12,087 nucleotides of DNA. Source: an uncultured Peptococcaceae bacterium (GTDB lineage: Bacteria > Bacillota > Peptococcia > Peptococcales > Peptococcaceae). The translations under genes and the position numbers were made by a program. Below are positions 1 to 9,926 of this stretch, one piece after another. Numbering within the stretch: position 1 is the first letter of the stretch; every line of letters starts with the position of its first letter. The DNA is taken from contig CAMFFG010000012.1 of the NCBI GenBank assembly GCA_945949655.1, positions 1-12,087 of the forward strand, read 5' to 3'. The notes beneath the pieces are model-generated. The model was not told the origin of the DNA. It did not search any database and worked only from the letters and a program-made list of their open reading frames with translations.

Positions 1-863
1 TATAAGATAGGCAAATTGACAACCATAATTTTAAGAATTATGAAATTGTTTTCTCGCATCTGCACAATATAGACTGTTTAGGACATGCTTTCTGGGAATG
101 GGCAAAAAATCGGAAACGGCATCCGGATCTGGATGAAAAACAGTATCAAGGCTTTATCACAAGTATTTATGAAGATACAGATAAGTATATTGGTTCTTTC
201 TTACCACTTTTGGATGAAGGATGGACAATTATTGTAACATCTGACCATGGTTTGTTGGTAAATGAAGAAGAACATTTCCCGTTGATGGGAGACCCATTTG
301 GTATCAATGCAGTCGTTATGGATGAATTGGGGTATACTGTTCTGAAACGTGATGAAAACGGAAATCCCTTGCATGAAATTGATTGGAGTAAAACGACAGC
401 AGTTGCTTCTAGAGGGAATCATATCTGGATCAACCTGAAGGGCAGAAATAAATATGGAATCGTTGATCCGGCTAATAAATACGAGTTAGAAGATAAGATT
501 ATCAGCGATTTATATAATTACCGCAATGAGGATGGGAAACGAATTATTTCTGTGGCAATGCGCAACAAAGAAGCAGCATTGCTTGGCATGAGCGGAGAAG
601 AATGTGGTGACATTATTTACTGGAACAGTGAAGGCATGAACCGTATTCATGGTGACTCCATGTCCACTTATACTGGGTATTTTGATACAACTGTATCGCC
701 AATTTTTATTGCTGCTGGCGCTGGCCTAAAAGAAAGCTTTGTGACGGATCGCGTTATTCGTCAGGTAGATGTGGCTCCGACAATTGCAGTTTTAGGTGGT
801 GTACGGATGCCAAAACAATGTGAAGGCGCACCAGTCTATCAGATTTTCAATGAAGAATTTTAA
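1..863 (+). CDS. Type I phosphodiesterase / alkaline phosphatase superfamily protein, 3' part only, possibly broken
   Basis: This is the C-terminal part of a metal-dependent phosphodiesterase/phosphatase-like protein, closely related to the complete protein encoded at 2475-4487. The frame is open from 6 to the TAA at 861-863 (285 codons). Conserved features are SHLHNID followed by GH (Asp at 72-74, His at 84-86), the SDHG metal motif (Asp at 243-245, His at 246-248) and the C-terminal RQVDVAPT block. Two things are odd. The codon at 3-5 is an in-frame TAA, where the paralogue has Ala. A one-base loss in 'aag-gat' near position 6 would explain it equally well, because frame 1 (tat aag) would then run into this frame. 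Also, Phe (681-683) stands where the paralogue has His611, a likely metal ligand. It may be a decaying copy, or the stop may be an edge or sequencing artefact. The family call is firm; the substrate is unknown. Confidence 0.8.
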
Positions 864-892
864 GAAACAGAAAGCTATATGAATAAGGAATA

Positions 893-931
893 TTTCAACA
901 GCATGGATGTTTTTCATCCATGCTGTTGAAA
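893..931. repeat. Perfect 17-bp inverted repeat (intergenic hairpin)
   Basis: The arms TTTCAACAGCATGGATG (893-909) and CATCCATGCTGTTGAAA (915-931) are perfectly complementary around a five-T loop (910-914). It sits between the phosphodiesterase stop codon and the ribosome binding site of the transporter gene at 966. No T-tract follows on either strand, so it is not a standard intrinsic terminator. A role in mRNA 3'-end protection, processing, or partial read-through control between the two genes is inference. Confidence 0.75.
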
Positions 932-965
932 AGATAAACTCAAACATCAAAAGGAGGGCCTTATT

Positions 966-2396
966 ATGGGGAAAAGAGAATATATACATTTAGGTATTAT
1001 GTTAATTATCATGGCTGTTTTTTGGGTATTGCAACCGATTGAACCTTTAACAGAAGTTGGTATGAAAGTTCTTGGTGTATTTCTGGCTGGGTGTTGGGGC
1101 TGGAGTACCTGTGGTGTTTTATGGCCATCCATTTTATGTATTTGTGCATTGCCATTGACCGGGGTCGCTACAATCAATGAATTACTAGCTGCTGGTACTG
1201 GTAACTTTATGTTTTTATTTATCATGTTCATTCTGGTGTTTAATCAGCTGTTGGACGATAGCGGTGTTAATGTGGCAATTGCAAACTTTTTTATCTCCAG
1301 AAAAATTGTAAAGGGAAGACCGTATGTATTAATCTTCTTCTTATTATTTGCGGGTTACCTGATTGGTACTGTATGCAATTTGTTTTTAACAATGTTCTTA
1401 ATGTGGGGTATTATTTACGGGATTGCAAATTCTTGTGGTTATGAGAAAAAAGATAAATTACCAAGTATTCTGATAGTTGCTATGTTGTTTGTTTTATTGA
1501 TGGGATATATGGCAATGCCATTCCATGGCATGACAGTACAGTTGTTGGCAGCTTGGGCAAATATGGCGCAGGTAGAAATTCCTTTTGCCAGTTGGTTAGC
1601 TTTTTCACTTCCTATGGGGCTTGGTTCCATTGTTTTATGCTGCTTGGTGATTCGATTTGTTATTCGTCCAGATGTATCTAAATTGGTAGCATACGATCCA
1701 GATTCTGTTGATAAAGAAACTATTAGATTTACAAAGGGAAAAACTATTGTTTTAGCTATGTTGATCTTCTTTGTACTTACCTTATTAATAGGTAATTCCC
1801 TTCCAACAACAAATCCAGTTGGTTATCTAGTAAAAACATTGGGGAATTCAGGTATGATTTCGCTGGTTATCTTGGCATTGATGTTTATTCGGGTAGATGG
1901 GAAACCTTTATTCAACTTTAAAGAAACAGCAGCGAAAGGGTTAAGTTTTGATGTATTGATTTGTACAGCTTACATGTTAATGCTAAGCAGTTATATGTCT
2001 GGTCAGGCAACAGGGATTAATGTATTCTTTATGAAACTGCTAACGCCATTTTTGGGTGGACTGTCACCAGTTATGTTCTGTCTGGTTTGCGGTATTGTGG
2101 TTGCAGTGCTAACAAACTTCTTGGCCAACATTGCAGTGGCTTACATGTTCCTGCCAATCGCGTTATCCTTTGCTCCAGTGATTGGATTTAATCCAACTAT
2201 TATGGCTATGATTATTATTTATGCCGCTCATTTATCTATTGCTACACCGGCTGCAAGTATTTATTCAGCCTTGATGTTTGCTAATACAGAGTGGTTAGAA
2301 ACGAAAACAGCTGTAAGATATGCATTAACAATCGTTGTGTTTGCGATTATAATAATGGTTCCTTGTGCAACTATGCTGGCATTTGCCATCAACTAA
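966..2396 (+). CDS. DASS/SLC13-like anion (dicarboxylate-type) transporter
   Basis: A 476-residue integral membrane protein made almost entirely of hydrophobic segments (about 11-12 helices by eye), with one charged cytoplasmic-type stretch near residues 235-260 (PDVSKL...DKETIRFTKGK). Length and layout match the divalent anion:sodium symporter (DASS/SLC13) group. Candidate counterparts of its paired SNT-type substrate and ion sites are Cys137-Asn138 followed by LFLT, and Thr383-Asn384-Phe-Leu-Ala-Asn388, each in a re-entrant-like position. The ATG at 966 follows AAAGGAGGG (near 950-958) at good spacing. It lies between two related phosphodiesterase genes on the same strand, so it probably imports the organic anion those enzymes act on, or exports or exchanges their product. 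Family placement is from pattern and hydropathy only; another ion-transporter-superfamily branch is possible. Confidence 0.75.
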   Translation: MGKREYIHLGIMLIIMAVFWVLQPIEPLTEVGMKVLGVFLAGCWGWSTCGVLWPSILCICALPLTGVATINELLAAGTGNFMFLFIMFILVFNQLLDDSGVNVAIANFFISRKIVKGRPYVLIFFLLFAGYLIGTVCNLFLTMFLMWGIIYGIANSCGYEKKDKLPSILIVAMLFVLLMGYMAMPFHGMTVQLLAAWANMAQVEIPFASWLAFSLPMGLGSIVLCCLVIRFVIRPDVSKLVAYDPDSVDKETIRFTKGKTIVLAMLIFFVLTLLIGNSLPTTNPVGYLVKTLGNSGMISLVILALMFIRVDGKPLFNFKETAAKGLSFDVLICTAYMLMLSSYMSGQATGINVFFMKLLTPFLGGLSPVMFCLVCGIVVAVLTNFLANIAVAYMFLPIALSFAPVIGFNPTIMAMIIIYAAHLSIATPAASIYSALMFANTEWLETKTAVRYALTIVVFAIIIMVPCATMLAFAIN

Positions 2397-2474
2397 TCTA
2401 TAAATAGGTTTCATAAGTTATCTCAAAAGTTACTTAAAACATAAATTAAATTGCAAAATCAGGAGGTCGTCACT

Positions 2475-4487
2475 ATGAAACGAGAAGCTTTATCTAGCAA
2501 GATCATGATTTTAGGAGTGGATGGCATGGATCCTCGTCTAACGGTTAAATATATGACGGAGGGAAAAATGCCAAATGTAAAAAAATTGATGGAACAGGGT
2601 TCCTGTAGAGAGGATTTAGTTTTGTTAGGGGCAAATCCCACTGTTACGCCTCCGATGTGGACAACCCTTGCCACTGGTGCTTATCCGATGACACATGGAA
2701 TCACAGGATTTTTCCGTCATTCGCCAAATGATTTGGATGTAGTACAGTATAATCTGGATTCGAGATTATGCCAAGCAGAACAGCTGTGGAATGTTTTTGC
2801 AGAGGCTGGTAAAAAAACGTTGGTATGGCACTGGCCGGGTTCTTCTTGGCCACCAACCTCAGAAAGTGAAAATCTTTATGTGGTGGATGGCACTAATCCG
2901 GGCAGCGTAAATATGGGAACAGCGCAGGTAGAAAGTGAATTTTTAGTAGGTGCCAGTGAAGCGGCAAGCGATATTCGTTATTTAAATCAGGTTGTTGGCG
3001 ATGTCAGCGCACCTTGTGTTATTACTGGATTAGAAGCAGATAGTGGTGCTGATCAGTTGGATTTGGGTGCTGCTTTCCGCTCTCCAGATATGAATATTAT
3101 TCTCTTAAAACCAGAAGATGGAGAAGGCGCAAGAGAACAGCCTGTAGATATTGTACAGTCTCCGATTAAGCCTGCAACCGGTTGGGCTGAAGCTCCAGAA
3201 GGTGCAAAAGAATTTATTATGTTGATGAGTGGTGGGTTATTACGAAGACCTTGTCAGATTTGGTGCAATGCAGAAGGTATTTATGATAGTGTTGCAGTAT
3301 TCCGTTCCAAAAAGGAAAAAGAACCACTTGTTGTATTGAAAGAAGGAAAAATTTATACCAATATTATTGACAAGGCAATTCGCGGTGATGAACAGATTGA
3401 CGTAACTCGTAATATGCGGTTGTTACGGTTGACTGAAGACGGAAGTGAACTGAAAATGTGGGTGTCGCCAGCAAACAATATTCATGATGACAGTGTTTTT
3501 CATCCAAAACGGATTTATCATGAAATTGCTGAAAATGTAGGTTATCCGGTACCAACTACACAGATTGGAGAACACTATTATGATTTGTTTAAAGAATGTA
3601 CCATCGATAACTGGTATGAAACTGCCGATTGGCAATCTGATAGTATTAAATATTTGATTGAAAATGAAGAAATCGAAATTATTTTCTCTCATTTCCACAA
3701 TGTCGATTTAGAGATGCATAAAATTGTACATTTCATGGAAGGTACAACGAAAGCACCTGCAAAATTTTATCAGGATATGGTCGAACAAGTATATCGTCAG
3801 ACAGACTATTATGTTGGAAAATTCTTAGATCTTTTAGAAGATAACTGGACAATTATGCTTGTTTCTGACCATGCACAGGTATGTTCTAAAAACGACCCAT
3901 ATTATTTAGGTGACCTCATGGGTGTAAATGTACGTGTTATGGAAGATTTGGGTTTTACAGTGCTGAAAAAAGATAAAGAAGGCAAGGAATTACGTGAAAT
4001 TGATTGGGAAAAAACAAAAGCAATTGCAATTCGCGAAAATGATATTTATATCAATGTAAAAGGTCGTGATAAACACGGTATTGTTGCTCCAGAAGATAAA
4101 TATGAAGTGGAAGAAGAAGTAATGACTGCTTTGTATGGGTATAAACATCCAGAAACAGGTCGTCGTTGCGTAGCTTTGGCATTACGCAATAAAGATGCTG
4201 CAGTATTAGGTTTGGGCGGTCCAGAATGTGGTGATATCATTTATTTCACTGCGGAAGGTTATAACTGGGATCATGCTGATGGATTATCTACTACTTGGGG
4301 GTTGCATGATACCTCTTTATCTCCTATTTTTATTGGTGCTGGTCCAGGATTTAAAAAAGGATTCCGCACGAAAATGATGTTGCGTCAGGTGGATGTTGCA
4401 CCAACGATGGCGGTGATTGGCGGTGTTAGGATGCCGCGCGAATGTGAAGGTGCACCAATGTATTCAATTTTAACAGAAGAATTTTAA
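2475..4487 (+). CDS. Type I phosphodiesterase / nucleotide pyrophosphatase-like hydrolase (alkaline phosphatase superfamily)
   Basis: A complete 670-residue metal-dependent hydrolase. The N-terminus carries the ILGVDGMD metal motif (Asp16) and then TVTPPMWTTLATG...HGI, with Thr58 as the likely nucleophile and His74 in the conserved HGI. Further metal ligands fit Asp411 and His415 (FSHFHNVDLEMH), Asp465-His466 (VSDHA) and His611 (WGLHDT). There is no sulfatase-type CxPxR motif, so a phospho- or phosphonoester bond is likelier than a sulfate ester. No signal peptide is visible, so it should act in the cytoplasm, after uptake by the neighbouring transporter. I chose ATG 2475 because AGGAGG (2461-2466) sits 8 bases upstream; an in-frame TTG at 2451 lacks such a site. 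The C-terminal half is clearly paralogous to the partial gene at 1-863. At 670 residues it is longer than a minimal NPP domain; residues about 160-380 look like an inserted or cap region. Substrate unknown. Confidence 0.85.
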   Translation: MKREALSSKIMILGVDGMDPRLTVKYMTEGKMPNVKKLMEQGSCREDLVLLGANPTVTPPMWTTLATGAYPMTHGITGFFRHSPNDLDVVQYNLDSRLCQAEQLWNVFAEAGKKTLVWHWPGSSWPPTSESENLYVVDGTNPGSVNMGTAQVESEFLVGASEAASDIRYLNQVVGDVSAPCVITGLEADSGADQLDLGAAFRSPDMNIILLKPEDGEGAREQPVDIVQSPIKPATGWAEAPEGAKEFIMLMSGGLLRRPCQIWCNAEGIYDSVAVFRSKKEKEPLVVLKEGKIYTNIIDKAIRGDEQIDVTRNMRLLRLTEDGSELKMWVSPANNIHDDSVFHPKRIYHEIAENVGYPVPTTQIGEHYYDLFKECTIDNWYETADWQSDSIKYLIENEEIEIIFSHFHNVDLEMHKIVHFMEGTTKAPAKFYQDMVEQVYRQTDYYVGKFLDLLEDNWTIMLVSDHAQVCSKNDPYYLGDLMGVNVRVMEDLGFTVLKKDKEGKELREIDWEKTKAIAIRENDIYINVKGRDKHGIVAPEDKYEVEEEVMTALYGYKHPETGRRCVALALRNKDAAVLGLGGPECGDIIYFTAEGYNWDHADGLSTTWGLHDTSLSPIFIGAGPGFKKGFRTKMMLRQVDVAPTMAVIGGVRMPRECEGAPMYSILTEEF

Positions 4488-4578
4488 TATGAGATTAGAA
4501 AGTCTAAGTATAAATTTACAAACGAATAGACAGTTATGAAGTTATTAGTTTTATAGAAAAATATATACGGAACCTCAC

Positions 4579-4613
4579 ACAAGGCAGGTAAACAGTCCGG
4601 TTACCTGTCTTGT
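4579..4613 (+). terminator. Hairpin, likely terminator of the phosphodiesterase/transporter cluster
   Basis: ACAAGGCAGGTAA (4579-4591) pairs with TTACCTGTCTTGT (4601-4613) over 13 bp with one G-U pair and a 9-base loop. Only a weak, interrupted T-rich stretch (atcattta) follows, so termination efficiency is uncertain. The remaining gap from 4488 to 4650 is AT-rich and shows nothing else convincing. Confidence 0.55.
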
Positions 4614-4650
4614 ATCATTTATATAAAAACGGATGTAAGGAGGAATTTTT

Positions 4651-5097
4651 ATGGAGCTTTATTATGACAGTGAAGGTCGGATGGGAATACTGAAACAGCG
4701 GGCCCGCCGTTGTGTCTGCAAGTATTGCGGAGGTCGTTTAAGCTTAAAGCGGATCAGCTTTAGCGAGATCGAGGATGCCCGTGTTGAAATCTTTTGCAAA
4801 TCCTGTGACCGCATTGAGTATGGTGTGGAACCGGAAATCTATCAGAGTGCGCTGTATTTTGTGGAAGAGATGGGGTTCAATTATTATCCGGATCTGAATC
4901 AGAGTGAAAAAACAAAGCGGATGAATGTGGCCAAGGTATGTGACATTATGGCTTGGGAAAATAAAAATCTGGGTATCCTGAATCGGGACGGTTTTACGGT
5001 GCCTTTGGCGGCAAATAAAAATATGATCGGTGAATGTGTGATCCTGGATGAAACCGATCTGGAGGATATGGAAGATATTTCGGTGGGTACGCTGTAA
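4651..5097 (+). CDS. Small zinc-ribbon protein of unknown function
   Basis: A 148-residue soluble protein. The N-terminal third has two paired cysteine motifs, CKYCGG (Cys23, Cys26) and CKSC (Cys49, Cys52), typical of a structural zinc ribbon. The rest is mixed and charged, ending in an acidic tail (ETDLEDMEDI). I do not recognise the family. ATG 4651 is set by AAGGAGG at 4637-4643 with a 7-base spacer. It is the first gene of a tight operon: the next gene, an ABC ATPase, starts 30 bases after its stop. A zinc ribbon may mean nucleic-acid or protein binding, but no function can be assigned. Confidence 0.8.
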   Translation: MELYYDSEGRMGILKQRARRCVCKYCGGRLSLKRISFSEIEDARVEIFCKSCDRIEYGVEPEIYQSALYFVEEMGFNYYPDLNQSEKTKRMNVAKVCDIMAWENKNLGILNRDGFTVPLAANKNMIGECVILDETDLEDMEDISVGTL

Positions 5098-5127
5098 GAA
5101 AGCCAGCCAGCAGGAGGTGAACAGAAA

Positions 5128-5943
5128 ATGGAACAGAAAACAGTCATTGAGATGAAACAGCTGAACTGTAAAATAGGGAAGCAGTATCTTCTGAAAGAGA
5201 TCAACTGGACCATCGCCGATGGGGAACACTGGATCCTGTTTGGTCTGAACGGATCCGGAAAAACAACGCTGATGAGTATTCTGGCTGGTTATCAGCAGCA
5301 GACGTCAGGAGAGCTCAAAGTGTTTGGAGAAGCCTACAGCGCGGAAAATCTGATCCGAAACCGGCGCAAAATCGGCTTAGTCAGCTCGTCTTATTTTGAT
5401 CGGTGCTATCGGGATGAAAGCGTGCTGGAAATTGTGTTATCCGGCGTACTGGGTACGTTAGGGTTGGATTTTGACCTGACCGATGCAGATGTGAAACGGG
5501 CAAAACAATTGTTGGGCAGACTGGGCCTTGCGGAAAAAATCAATCAGAGTTATGGCACCATGAGCAAAGGGGAACGGGAATGTGTTCTCATTGCCAGAGC
5601 CTTACTGGCGGAACCGGAAATTCTGATTCTGGATGAGCCCTGCTCCGGTCTGGATGTGCTGGCAAGGGATAACATGCTGCATACTGCGGAGCAGTTGGCT
5701 GAAAGCAGGGAGACGACCATGATTTATGTCACCCATTACATGGAAGAGATTCTGCCCTGCTTTGAACATGCCGTGCTTTTACGGCAGGGCCGGATCTATC
5801 AGAAGGGCTGGAGCCAGACGGTGTTTACCGAAGCTGTGATGTGTGACTTTCTGCAGTCGGCCGTACAGGTGCATCGGGATGAAAAGGGGCGGATCACGCT
5901 GTCGATGGCGGAGAGAAAAAGCTTTGAACTGGAAGCGAGGTGA
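5128..5943 (+). CDS. ABC transporter ATP-binding protein, YlmA/ModF-like (COG1119 type)
   Basis: A 271-residue single ABC ATPase domain. Walker A is GLNGSGKTT (39-47), the signature is MSKGE (145-149, a variant of LSGGQ), Walker B plus D-loop is ILILDEPCSGLD (165-176), and the switch His is His203 in YVTH. The GEHW motif before Walker A, VSSS where the Q-loop Gln is expected (85-88) and DEPCxGLD resemble Bacillus YlmA and the ModF group; the missing Q-loop Gln is part of that likeness. No permease or binding-protein gene is adjacent, which is common for YlmA-type ATPases, and their substrate is not settled. ATG 5128 follows AGGAGGTGA (5112-5120). The next gene starts 6 bases after the stop, implying translational coupling. 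Confidence 0.88.
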   Translation: MEQKTVIEMKQLNCKIGKQYLLKEINWTIADGEHWILFGLNGSGKTTLMSILAGYQQQTSGELKVFGEAYSAENLIRNRRKIGLVSSSYFDRCYRDESVLEIVLSGVLGTLGLDFDLTDADVKRAKQLLGRLGLAEKINQSYGTMSKGERECVLIARALLAEPEILILDEPCSGLDVLARDNMLHTAEQLAESRETTMIYVTHYMEEILPCFEHAVLLRQGRIYQKGWSQTVFTEAVMCDFLQSAVQVHRDEKGRITLSMAERKSFELEAR

Positions 5944-5949
5944 AGGAGT

Positions 5950-6897
5950 ATGACAGCGCGTATGGATGCTCTGAACATGCTGTACCGCGATTTTAAGGTA
6001 GCCAGTGATGTATCGGAGATGCTGGAATTACGGCGGTTTGATGTGGAATATACGGTTTATGGCAGTCTGTTTCGGGAGGACGGCAGGCAGAAATACATCA
6101 TCAGCACCAAAGAGGATAAAATTATTGCTTACAACAATCAGAGAGAACATTTTAAAAATAGCCCGCTGCCTGTCCAGACCCATACTTTGCGTACGACTGT
6201 ACCGGCAGGCAGTGAGGAGGATTTTTTACAGCTGGTGAAAAAGCAGCTGGCCATAAAAATCAGGGACAGTTATGATCCGGATTTTCTTTCAGCTTTTTAT
6301 GCACTGGAAGAAACCGAACCGGATGATGCCGGCGAGCCTATCCTCACCCAACTGCAGGAGTGCTTGTGTGGTCTGTACCGCAGAGAAAATCTGGTGTTAT
6401 TTGAAGGCCTGATGGATCGTGCTTACAGGGCCAAGCATTTAACGGAAACGACCGTAAAAGGGTATGAAAGCTGGCTGAATGAAGAAATTCGGCAGCTGGA
6501 GGATGAGCCCGTGGTGATGGAGCAGTTTGAAAAAGACTTTTTTGGCATTCTCTACACAGACGGAGCAGTCACAAAACGATACTGCAATGCAGAGCGCAGC
6601 AAAGTGTATCAGAAAAAAGCCGAACTGGAAAAACGACACATGCTGGTCACACCTGTATTGCAAAAACATTACTGGCACAGTTACGAGGAAACGGTAAAAG
6701 ATGTGCGACAAAAATTCGAGAACGATTTATTATGTACATATGATGAAACTTATCTTTCTTATCTGTACAAGATTGATGCATTGACAGCTAGGGTATCAGA
6801 AAAAGCTTTTAAAATATGGGAAATGGAGAATAGCGAAAAAAATGCTATGATGGCAGAAGCAATTGCATTATATCGATTTTTGTGGGGGATAAAATAG
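5950..6897 (+). CDS. Hypothetical protein, mosaic gene with replaced 3' end
   Basis: A 315-residue soluble, charged, probably mostly helical protein that I do not recognise. It has no signal peptide and no clear catalytic motif. Start 5950 is supported by GAGGTGA (5937-5943), which overlaps the ATPase stop codon, so translation is probably coupled to that gene and the products may work together. From about 6715 (residue 256 onward) codon choice turns sharply AT-rich, while the upstream part matches the operon. A second, GC-rich version of its last 29 codons lies at 8405-8494, beyond the foreign exporter gene. Both versions end in MAEAI-xx-YR-xx-WGIK. I infer that the N-terminal four-fifths is native and the last 60 or so residues came from a donor homologue. 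The reading frame is intact, so the hybrid may still function. Confidence 0.75.
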   Translation: MTARMDALNMLYRDFKVASDVSEMLELRRFDVEYTVYGSLFREDGRQKYIISTKEDKIIAYNNQREHFKNSPLPVQTHTLRTTVPAGSEEDFLQLVKKQLAIKIRDSYDPDFLSAFYALEETEPDDAGEPILTQLQECLCGLYRRENLVLFEGLMDRAYRAKHLTETTVKGYESWLNEEIRQLEDEPVVMEQFEKDFFGILYTDGAVTKRYCNAERSKVYQKKAELEKRHMLVTPVLQKHYWHSYEETVKDVRQKFENDLLCTYDETYLSYLYKIDALTARVSEKAFKIWEMENSEKNAMMAEAIALYRFLWGIK

Positions 6898-8404
6898 TCA
6901 TATCAAATAGAAAGAAATGGGGACAAAAAGCGATGCAGAATAATCAACAAATTTCAAATTCTGAACAATTAATGATATTAGCATTGTGGGTTGGATGCTT
7001 TTTAAGTGTATTAAATATTACTAATATTAATGTAGCACTTCCTACATTGATTCAAGAATTCCAAACTGATATGACCACTATACAATGGATTATTGTTGTA
7101 TATATGCTGGCAAATGGATTAGTAATGCCGACTGTGGGCTATTTTGTCGATCGTTTCAGTGGGAAAAGAGTGTATATTTTTTCCATGGTTTTATTTACTG
7201 TGGCAAGTTTATTGTGCGCATTAGCAAATAACTTATCTGTGATGACAGGAGCGAGACTGATGCAAGGTGTTGCAGGAGGCCTAATAATGCCGGTAAGTAC
7301 TGCGCTTATCTATCAGTTTATTCCTCGAGAAAGACAACTGATGACATCGGCAGTAAATAGTATGATCAGTATTTTGGGGGTTGCGGTAGGACCTTCGGTA
7401 TCTGGGATTCTAATTAGTTTTTTTTCATGGCAAGGGATTTTTATTGCGAATATTCCAATTAGTTTTCTTGTAATCGTACTTGCTTGTAAATTCATTCCGT
7501 ACCATATTTCGAATAACGGGGAAAAATTAGATTTGCTAGGACTATTTTTTGCTTCGATAGGAACAATCAGTTTGCTATTAGGCTTTAATCAAGGTGGAGG
7601 ATTCGGCTGGAAATCTCCTATCACCGTTTGCTTGATTGCAGTTGGGGTTTTATCCATGTGTATGTTTATATACCATGAAATGCATACGCATTTTCCAATG
7701 CTTAATTTTCAAGTTTTTTGTTATAAAGGGTTTGCATTAGGAGTTTTGATCTGTACTATACTAAATTTGGTAGTACAATTGGACCGATTTATGTGGCAAT
7801 TTTTTTGCAGGATATACTGGATTACACACCTTTGCAGGCAGGTCTAGCGGTAATTTTACCATCACTGGCCATGGCAGTGATGTCTGCAATTTCTGCAAAA
7901 GGAGCCTTGAAATTTGGGTATCGTCAAATAATGCTGTTGGGATTTGGTATTCTGATGATTGGCACATGGACTTTGAGCCAATTTACATTAACTACAACAT
8001 TATTATGGTTTACTATTTGTCTGTGTGTTCGATATATTGGATTGGGTTCTGTAACAACAATCTTGAACAATTATTCGATGAGTTCTCTTCCAAAACGGTT
8101 GGCTTCTCATGGTTCTGCTATGTACAATTGGATTCGTCAGTTGATTGGAACTATTTCAGTTAGTGTATTTAGTATAATTTATAGTGCACAAACAGTATCC
8201 TTGACGGAAGTGAATTTATCGGCAGGGATTATAAATTCAGTGAAATTAGGTGAACTGCAAGCTATCAATAATATTAATTTTTATACCATATTTATTTATC
8301 TTGTAGCATTTGTAATTACAATGCTATTAAATGCACATTATATGGAACAAGGAATAAAAGAAGAGGTATAAGAATAAGTGTTGATGTAATGCCATATAGC
8401 ATAG
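6715..8404. other. AT-rich acquired segment (recombination import) with exporter gene
   Basis: An AT-rich block lies between the intermediate-GC operon on its left and GC-rich sequence on its right. It contains the 3' end of a donor version of the 5950 gene, a broken DHA2 exporter gene, and a short non-coding tail (8372-8404). The left edge is placed by eye where codon usage changes (about 6705-6725). The right edge is placed where a GC-rich duplicate of the gene end begins (8405). I saw no integrase, transposase or terminal repeats, so homologous exchange is likelier than transposition. Confidence 0.6.
6933..8371 (+). pseudogene. MFS multidrug exporter, DHA2 (EmrB/QacA-like) family, frameshifted
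   Basis: A 14-helix-type drug:proton antiporter gene split into two frames. The first part (6933 to about 7770, drifting to a stop at 7847) has NVALPTL (33-39), MFS motif A G-YFV-DRFSGKR (69-79), the motif-B-like GARLMQGVAGG (Arg108) and motif C GVAVGPSVSG (149-158), followed by the FFSWQGIFIANIP stretch typical of DHA2 exporters. The second part (from about 7770 to 8371) continues in another frame as STIGPIYVAIFLQDIL and on to the C-terminus. Adding one G to 'aatttggtagt' (7765-7773) restores one frame of about 479 residues, the normal DHA2 length. Start ATG 6933 follows GGGGA (6919-6923); an earlier in-frame GTG at 6882 overlaps the preceding gene and lacks a site. The break may be a true mutation or a sequencing error in a G run. 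The gene is AT-rich, unlike both neighbours. Confidence 0.8.
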
Positions 8405-8494
8405 AAAAGAGAATGGAGCAGCAAAAACAGAGAGAAAAATAAGGCAATGGCGGAGGCCATCGAGACCTATCGGCTTTACTGGGGCATAAAATAA
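8405..8494 (+). pseudogene. Orphaned native 3' end of the hypothetical gene at 5950
   Basis: Read in frame from 8405, 29 codons end REKNKAMAEAIETYRLYWGIK-stop (TAA 8492-8494). This aligns without gaps to SEKNAMMAEAIALYRFLWGIK at the end of the 5950 gene, including a conserved Trp 9 residues before the Asn of EKN. An in-frame TAG (8402-8404) precedes it and there is no start, so it is not expressed as a gene. Codons are GC-rich (gcg, gag, gcc, atc, cgg) where the upstream copy uses gca, gaa, gca, att, cga, so this is the older resident version. Confidence 0.75.
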
Positions 8495-8527
8495 CGCAAA
8501 GGATGCGAACGAAACGGCAAAAAACAT

Positions 8528-8556
8528 GTGGCATTTTGCACAGTTTGTACTATAAT
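8528..8556 (+). promoter_or_regulatory. Promoter of the first MATE gene
   Basis: A perfect -10 TATAAT (8551-8556) lies 17 bases after a weak -35 GTGGCA (8528-8533). Transcription would start near 8563, giving a short leader before AAGGAG (8574-8579). It lies just after the recombination scar, so the MATE gene is transcribed separately from the operon upstream. Confidence 0.6.
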
Positions 8557-8588
8557 AGAGGGTATCTGTGAAAAAGGAGATGGGTGCT

Positions 8589-9926
8589 GTGCGAGACCTG
8601 ACACAGGGCAACATTACCTCTATTCTGCTGCGTTTTGCCATTCCCATAGTGTTTTCCCGGGTCTTTCAGCTGTTTTACAGTCTGGCCGATACCCGCATTA
8701 TAGGTGGGGCATTGGGCGATAGCTCACTGGCCGCCATCAGTGCGTCCAGCACGTTCTATCAGCTGTTACTGACCTTTATTACGGGGCTTACCAGCGGCTT
8801 TGCCATTGTCATAGCCCGCTATTTGGGCGCGCACAATGAACAGCCTTTTCGCCGGGCGGTGGCTGGCACATTTCGACTGGGTGCTTTTATCGGGCTGGCA
8901 CTGACGGTGCTGAGTCTGCTCAGTCTGCCCGTCATGCTGCGCATCTTAAATATTGAGGCGGCCCTATTGCCGGAAAGCCGTATCTATATTCAGATCGTGC
9001 TGTGCGGTCTGATCTTATCGGCACTGTATAATCTCTGCGCCGGTGTGCTTTACGGCGTGGGAGATTCCATGACGCCGCTGATTTTTCTGATCATCAGTAC
9101 AGTGGGCAATGTGGCGCTGGATCTGCTGTTTGTGGTGGTTCTGCCCTTTGGCGTGGCCGGGGCGGCCTGGGGTACGGTCATTGCCCAGGGAGTGGCGGCC
9201 ATCGGGTGTTTGACCTATTTGCTGCATCACTATCCGGCGCTGCGCCTGCACAAGGCTGATTTTGTGCGGGATGCTGCCATCACCGCGGAGCTGTTGAAAA
9301 CGGGCTGTTCCTGCGGGCTGATGCAGTCCATGATCAGCCTGGGTTCTTTAACACTGCAGATCACCATCAATGGGCTGGGCGAGACCTACATTGTGGCGCA
9401 GACCGCAGCGCGCCGTATTTCGGAGATTCTGATGATGCCATTTCTGGCCCTGGCCAGCGCGGTGGGCACCTTTACCAGCCAGAATCTGGGCTCCGGCAAG
9501 CTGCAGCGGGTGCGGGCCGGGTACCGGCAGTCCATCTTACTGTTATGGGCATGGTGCGCCATTGTACTTGTGATCTCCTACACTGCCTCACCGTGGCTGA
9601 TACAGCTCATCACCGCGACACAGTCGCAGCGGACCATTGCTGCTGCCACCTGGTATCTGCGCATTGATACTTTATTCTATTTTACTCTGCCGCTGATCAT
9701 CGTCAGCCGGCAGACACTGCAGAGCCTGGGCGATCAGGTGGTACCGGTCATCTCCAGCGGGATCGAGTGTGTGGGTAAAATTATCATCGCGTTCACACTG
9801 GCCCGCAAGCTGGGCTATTTGGGCATTATTCTGGCAGAACCCATCGTGTGGTTTGTGATGGTGATTCCGCTGCTGATCAGCCTGAAACAGCGGATGCCCG
9901 GACCTGATGCTGGAGAGCAGACGTAA
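8589..9926 (+). CDS. MATE family multidrug/cation efflux transporter
   Basis: A 445-residue membrane protein with about 12 hydrophobic segments in two halves, the usual MATE length. The N-terminus (DLTQGNITSILLRFAIP, then LFYSLADTRIIGGALG) and the repeat-like GVGDSMTPL...GNVALDLLFVV region are typical of Bacillota MATE proteins. The second half has the equivalent LQSLGDQVVPV block. It should export cationic drugs or metabolites driven by a Na+ or H+ gradient. I chose GTG 8589 because AAGGAG (8574-8579) is spaced 9 bases from it; ATG 8580 directly abuts that site and GTG 8568 lies upstream of it. It has its own promoter and converges on menA across a shared terminator. Substrate is unknown. 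Confidence 0.88.
   Translation: MRDLTQGNITSILLRFAIPIVFSRVFQLFYSLADTRIIGGALGDSSLAAISASSTFYQLLLTFITGLTSGFAIVIARYLGAHNEQPFRRAVAGTFRLGAFIGLALTVLSLLSLPVMLRILNIEAALLPESRIYIQIVLCGLILSALYNLCAGVLYGVGDSMTPLIFLIISTVGNVALDLLFVVVLPFGVAGAAWGTVIAQGVAAIGCLTYLLHHYPALRLHKADFVRDAAITAELLKTGCSCGLMQSMISLGSLTLQITINGLGETYIVAQTAARRISEILMMPFLALASAVGTFTSQNLGSGKLQRVRAGYRQSILLLWAWCAIVLVISYTASPWLIQLITATQSQRTIAAATWYLRIDTLFYFTLPLIIVSRQTLQSLGDQVVPVISSGIECVGKIIIAFTLARKLGYLGIILAEPIVWFVMVIPLLISLKQRMPGPDAGEQT

Follow-up and report, generated by a model that had tools for sequence, protein, structure and literature searches.

The window analyzed here (the whole 12,087-nucleotide stretch of contig CAMFFG010000012.1 from an uncultured Peptococcaceae bacterium) likely carries the scar of a single horizontal replacement, with one in-register join inside a gene encoding a 315-aa protein (termed U315; positions 5950-6897, plus strand) and one illegitimate join at 8372-8413. 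The evidence consists of a second copy of the U315 gene end, a composition break inside the gene, the assignment of both gene ends by codon usage, and the preserved length of 315 aa. The process would be homology-facilitated illegitimate recombination, which in Rhs genes is called C-terminal displacement. A recombination model for this locus had been put forward in a preliminary description; it is partly supported by the present analysis and is the best available, and the underlying observation was confirmed with small corrections. Ribosomal protein L1 of this genome has 93-95% identity to proteins attributed to 'Peptococcaceae bacterium' MAGs, according to four named entries among the 120 listed.

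A second copy of the U315 gene end

At positions 8414-8494 on the plus strand, the 26 C-terminal codons of U315 and its stop occur a second time. The translation of 8414-8491 is WSSKNREKNKAMAEAIETYRLYWGIK, followed by TAA, and the intact end of U315 at 6817-6894 reads WEMENSEKNAMMAEAIALYRFLWGIK, followed by TAG. The two peptides are identical at 16 of 26 residues without a gap, and their stops are in register; translation of 8354-8500 yields an open stretch that closes with WGIK and a stop. The preliminary description had the duplicated end spanning 29 codons from 8405; the duplication itself stands, but its extent is reduced to 26 codons from 8414. An in-frame TAG at 8402-8404 bounds the left-over end on the left, and the gene body is absent. 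When the C-terminal 60 aa of U315 were compared with the six-frame translation of the window, with U315 itself masked, the repeated end obtained a Smith-Waterman score of 87, which none of 1000 shuffles matched (top shuffle, 61), so that a formal alignment of the two gene ends is significant at the protein level. The DNA-level signal is far weaker, with a local score of 22 that was reached by 2 of 2000 mononucleotide shuffles.

At the nucleotide level, the two ends share 48 of 78 positions, and their codons comprise 8 identical, 8 synonymous, and 10 non-synonymous pairs. The ends are thus too diverged for a recent local duplication, as had been argued before. GC-ending codons account for 17/26 in the left-over end and 9/26 in the intact end, a borderline difference in a small sample (Fisher p = 0.051) that agrees with the GC-rich codons previously ascribed to the left-over copy. 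The left-over end matches the adjacent U315 at 16 of 26 residues but the nearest database orthologues (50-52% identity) at only 10-11 of 26, and it is therefore taken as the end of a near orthologue of U315 itself. It shares the dipeptide YW with the database proteins P0003-P0005, whereas the intact U315 end has LW. Since all 26 codons and the stop are still open, the left-over end has probably undergone little decay, and the bulk of its differences from the new end would predate the event. A 9-base word is common to positions 6660 and 8421, which do not correspond to each other.

Composition break and codon usage

The third-position GC content (GC3) of U315 falls from 0.516 to 0.246 at a changepoint best placed at 6724 (9 of 2000 permutations were as strong), with a range of 6646-6736 within 2 log-likelihood units; the recombination point formerly proposed at about 6715 is in keeping with this mapping. 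The GC3 difference of -0.27 in U315 contrasts with 27 homologues that show a mean of +0.004 (sd 0.066, minimum -0.135), and none of the 27 breaks as strongly (log-likelihood ratio of 7.16 in U315 versus at most 4.15). Breaks at least as strong as that of U315 were found in 8 of 118 ORFs of at least 300 codons drawn from 20 stretches of this genome, these ORFs being mechanical calls that may include spurious ones; the break alone would therefore not carry the case. The AT-rich block reported to run through the downstream exporter gene was recovered, with 34.6% GC in 6724-8404 compared to a mean of 47.2% (sd 4.4) over 318 windows of 1.65 kb sampled in 24 stretches of this genome, which is uneven in GC; 0.6% of these windows were at or below 35%.

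Codon usage separates the two gene ends in the direction expected from the preliminary description, with the new end resembling the exporter gene and the left-over end resembling genes of the recipient. The swapped end (6724-6897, plus strand, with its boundary uncertain within 6646-6736), which is AT-rich and presumably donor-derived, was best explained by the exporter gene in a sample of only 57 codons (log-likelihood per codon of -0.904), followed by the AT-rich upstream genes (-0.951), the 5' part of U315 itself (-1.114), the small-protein and ABC transporter genes (-1.229), and the MATE/MenA/MarR genes (-1.379). For the left-over end, an even smaller sample of 26 codons, the values were -1.104 for MATE/MenA/MarR, -1.116 for the U315 5' part, -1.123 for the small-protein and ABC genes, -1.333 for the swapped end, -1.542 for the exporter, and -1.591 for the AT-rich upstream genes. 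The 5' part of U315 was itself best fitted by the small-protein and ABC genes.

On the recipient side, the upstream neighbor of U315 encodes an ABC transporter ATP-binding protein (5128-5943, plus strand; PF00005, E = 1.2e-27; GC3 of 0.59). The first recipient gene past the scar encodes a MATE family transporter (8568-9926, plus strand; PF01554; GC3 of 0.68). Its only close orthologue (85%) is found in genome G005, where no U315 gene was present within the 19 kb fetched around it. We infer the order of U315 followed by MATE before the event from the window alone; relatives do not back this order. A second composition break lies farther upstream, as the transporter and phosphodiesterase genes at 210-4487 have a GC3 of 0.29-0.35 versus 0.51-0.59 in 4651-6714, a segment that comprises the small protein, the ABC protein, and the U315 5' part. 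Because the CitMHS and phosphodiesterase genes in the left part of the window are also AT-rich, the locus or operon may be a mosaic with more than one break or exchange.

The passenger exporter gene

The inserted gene encodes a putative efflux protein of the major facilitator superfamily (MFS), DHA2/EmrB-like by profile, and is split into two overlapping reading frames at 6882-7847 and 7793-8371. The first piece (6933-7847, plus strand; PF07690, 134.9 bits) is listed as an ORF from a GTG at 6882, and the homologous protein P0007 starts at the ATG at 6933; the second piece (7793-8371, plus strand) lies in the other frame and scores 47.3 bits with PF07690. Both pieces exceed the Pfam MFS_1 cut-off. 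With the EmrB subfamily profile, the pieces, scored apart and unjoined, obtained 217.5 and 70.3 bits, each below the curated cut-off of 230.2. P0007, encoded on another contig, matches the exporter exactly over 164 N-terminal residues but is cut short at a different position. The former statement that the event brought in a drug exporter is thus too strong, given a gene split in two frames and another copy cut short elsewhere; the gene may be undergoing decay in the population, or else the split and the truncation are assembly errors.

The best protein database match of the first exporter piece was P0006 (61% identity over 87% of the query), which is the nearest non-fragment relative among those listed. 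In searches of genomes from the order (21) and the class (46), the best match of this piece beyond the window had 49% identity. Promoter-like and terminator-like sites in 6600-8700 occurred at chance level (8 versus 8.6 and 2 versus 1.2 expected, respectively).

Proposed event and alternatives

In the recipient, U315 would have been followed by the MATE gene, and the donor would have been AT-rich DNA, presumably a linear piece, that ran from the 3' part of a diverged orthologue of U315 into the MFS gene. The donor piece may have paired with the recipient U315 and joined it in register near 6724, and its far end would have been attached by an illegitimate join shortly before the old 3' end of the recipient gene, in the interval from the exporter stop to the left-over end (8372-8413, as placed by the stop and alignment positions). 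The outcome would be a full-length hybrid U315, with its last fifth of foreign origin, and an inserted exporter gene, with about 1.65-1.69 kb gained; the recipient would have lost about 80-170 bp of the old gene, from the left join to 6817 (the counterpart of 8414), and the old end would remain 1.5 kb downstream as the 26-codon left-over. The hybrid U315 has 315 aa, equal to P0003 and P0004, and this unchanged length points to a left join directed by homology. Ordinary homologous recombination at this site would have been inefficient, since the two ends share only 48 of 78 nucleotides and the join lies in a poorly conserved segment (residues 201-258, with 29-40% identity to P0003-P0005). The donor may have been closer to the recipient at the left join, or the left join may also have formed via a short match.

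Several other histories were weighed against a single horizontal replacement. Tandem paralogues, the second of which was reduced to its last 26 codons when the exporter was inserted into or next to it, are unlikely; the presence of multiple U315 copies in the family (up to eight matches per genome) and the nearness of the left-over end to the upstream gene speak for such erosion, but it leaves the composition break inside the first gene and the codon usage common to its end and the exporter unexplained, and a second end was found in none of the 37 scanned loci within 743-6000 bases downstream. Integration at a gene end usually restores that end on one side and leaves the old end on the other, which is also the picture seen here. 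A mobile element that brings along a copy of the 3' end of its target gene, or a circle integrated in the Campbell manner, would produce such an arrangement, and circular intermediates have been proposed for Rhs genes (PMC2935791). We nevertheless hold this origin to be improbable: the ORFs of at least 80 aa in 6898-8404 are the exporter pieces and one overlapping minus-strand ORF, no recombinase was found in the insert (Pfam searches of the exporter pieces returned MFS families only), and the two ends share 48 of 78 nucleotides rather than a long identical core. The geometry of a simple circle also misfits, because it predicts a right copy starting no later than the crossover, whereas the left join (at or before 6736) lies upstream of 6817, the counterpart of the start of the right copy, so that an extra deletion would be needed.

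There is slightly less in favor of the view that no exchange took place at 6724, the U315 end having become AT-rich otherwise and the exporter and left-over end having arrived via an unrelated rearrangement. The long ORFs with equally strong breaks and the uneven GC content of the genome are compatible with it; the complete lack of such a break among the 27 homologues, together with a swapped end in the codon usage of the exporter and a left-over end in that of the recipient, makes it hard to credit. Least probable is an artefact in which reads of two strains were wrongly joined. The genome is a fragmented bin of 1.55 Mb in 285 contigs that is 68% complete, the right join is present in one contig only, and the exporter occupies two frames, all of which would suit an artefact. 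False joins at diverged sequence are not usual for assemblers, however; in addition, this gene with an end of the same type (P0002) and the 164 residues identical to the exporter (P0007) are each encoded on another contig.

Neither a donor nor an empty allele was found in the sets searched. The genome contigs gave 42 and 12 pattern matches, none of which was confirmed, in a set from which records very near the window are possibly absent; the viral contigs gave three pattern matches for the U315 protein, none confirmed, and none for the exact 30-base left-over pattern; and the plasmids gave no match. In the 13 family genomes, the insert DNA matched the window itself and three short stretches (67-72% identity) of exporter-coding DNA.

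Relation to known displacement systems

The U315 scar is best regarded as a clear case of an already known type of recombination scar and not as a new system: the old 3' end lies downstream of the new one, the foreign composition starts inside the gene and continues through the insert, and the left join is in register. Homology-facilitated illegitimate recombination has reportedly been described in laboratory work on Acinetobacter, Pseudomonas, and Streptococcus. In the laboratory cases, the anchor is generally near-identical to its target, in contrast to the visible U315 ends with 48 of 78 nucleotides in common. One such study documents small linear DNA with one homologous and one illegitimate join (PMC3240628), the same combination as in the U315 scar.

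Rhs loci, as described by Jackson et al. (2009; PMC2935791), have a GC-rich body, a low-GC new 3' end, a GC trough that continues downstream, and displaced old ends, and the U315 locus resembles them in each of these traits. As described there, however, Rhs tips are dissimilar within a locus, whereas both U315 ends are versions of the same end; displaced Rhs fragments keep part of the core, while the U315 left-over lacks the gene body; the U315 locus shows a single displacement, unlike Rhs; and the simple geometry of the circular intermediates proposed for Rhs misfits the U315 locus. Effector displacement in the type VI secretion system (T6SS) of Vibrio cholerae is likewise similar, with a proposed homologous anchor and an illegitimate join that leave the old 3' part behind the new module, but there the exchanged modules are effector-immunity pairs, and the old immunity genes are retained (PMC5361080). 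At the U315 locus, a split MFS exporter forms the passenger, and there is no sign of selection keeping the left-over.

The U315 case is thus distinct in that the old and new ends are homologous, the gene is not known as a toxin gene, and a single event is involved. It offers a readable snapshot of how a neighboring gene can enter a genome together with the end of a gene common to donor and recipient, leaving the host gene at full length, although an exporter gene acquired in this way need not work. The precedents considered here are toxin-related loci, and the operon with the U315 scar is an ordinary one from uncultured Firmicutes. As a long shot, U315-type gene ends, last in a multi-copy operon, might serve as landing pads at which end displacement carries passenger genes from one related genome to another, beyond toxin systems.

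The U315 family and its operon

The U315 protein, probably a hybrid gene product, belongs to an uncharacterized paralogous family with homologues in all 13 genomes examined from the Peptococcaceae and up to eight matches per genome, and the C-termini of these homologues differ greatly from that of U315. No Pfam, NCBIfam, or PADLOC match was obtained, and the best hit of a PDB sequence search had an E-value of 0.054. The closest proteins in the protein database have 100, 99, 52, 51, and 50% identity; the 99% identical P0002, seen as protein only, has the same kind of end and is encoded on a different contig, of 2239 bases.

A duplicated end as a general habit of the family was rejected, as the window alone stood out (z = 15.6) when 37 of 40 family loci were scanned over 743-6000 bases downstream each, with 60 shuffles per locus, and no second U315 end was found in these 37 other loci. 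Loci L123 and L134, where no U315 was found, and L115, with 206 bases downstream, were left out. The next scores belonged to L147 (3.8), L116 (2.6), and L137 (2.1); the L147 match of 23 ungapped residues, 1449 bases downstream, does not look like a U315 end and may correspond to a biotin-ligase motif. The idea that the exporter is a usual neighbor of U315 was likewise discarded, since none of 38 U315 loci had a same-strand MFS match in the fetched stretch. L127 has two opposite-strand MFS matches at 74 and 1679 bases, L131 has a same-strand MATE match (21%) at 2250 bases, and L112 has a MarR match (24%).

The operon at 966-6897 of the window comprises genes for a phosphodiesterase (PF01663), a CitMHS-like transporter (PF03600), a small CxxC protein of 148 aa, the ABC ATPase, and U315. 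The small CxxC protein has no NCBIfam or PADLOC match. A narrow search of the literature for the operon returned one genome paper, which was unrelated. At least four of the five genes recur together at several places per genome in the family (L080-L085, L089). Another locus of the same genome (L087, G000:C114, 37-1630) carries an AT-rich ABC/U315 pair, with a U315 GC content of 0.36 and the ABC gene present as two ORFs, and the ORFs downstream of this pair are GC-rich (0.56-0.58).
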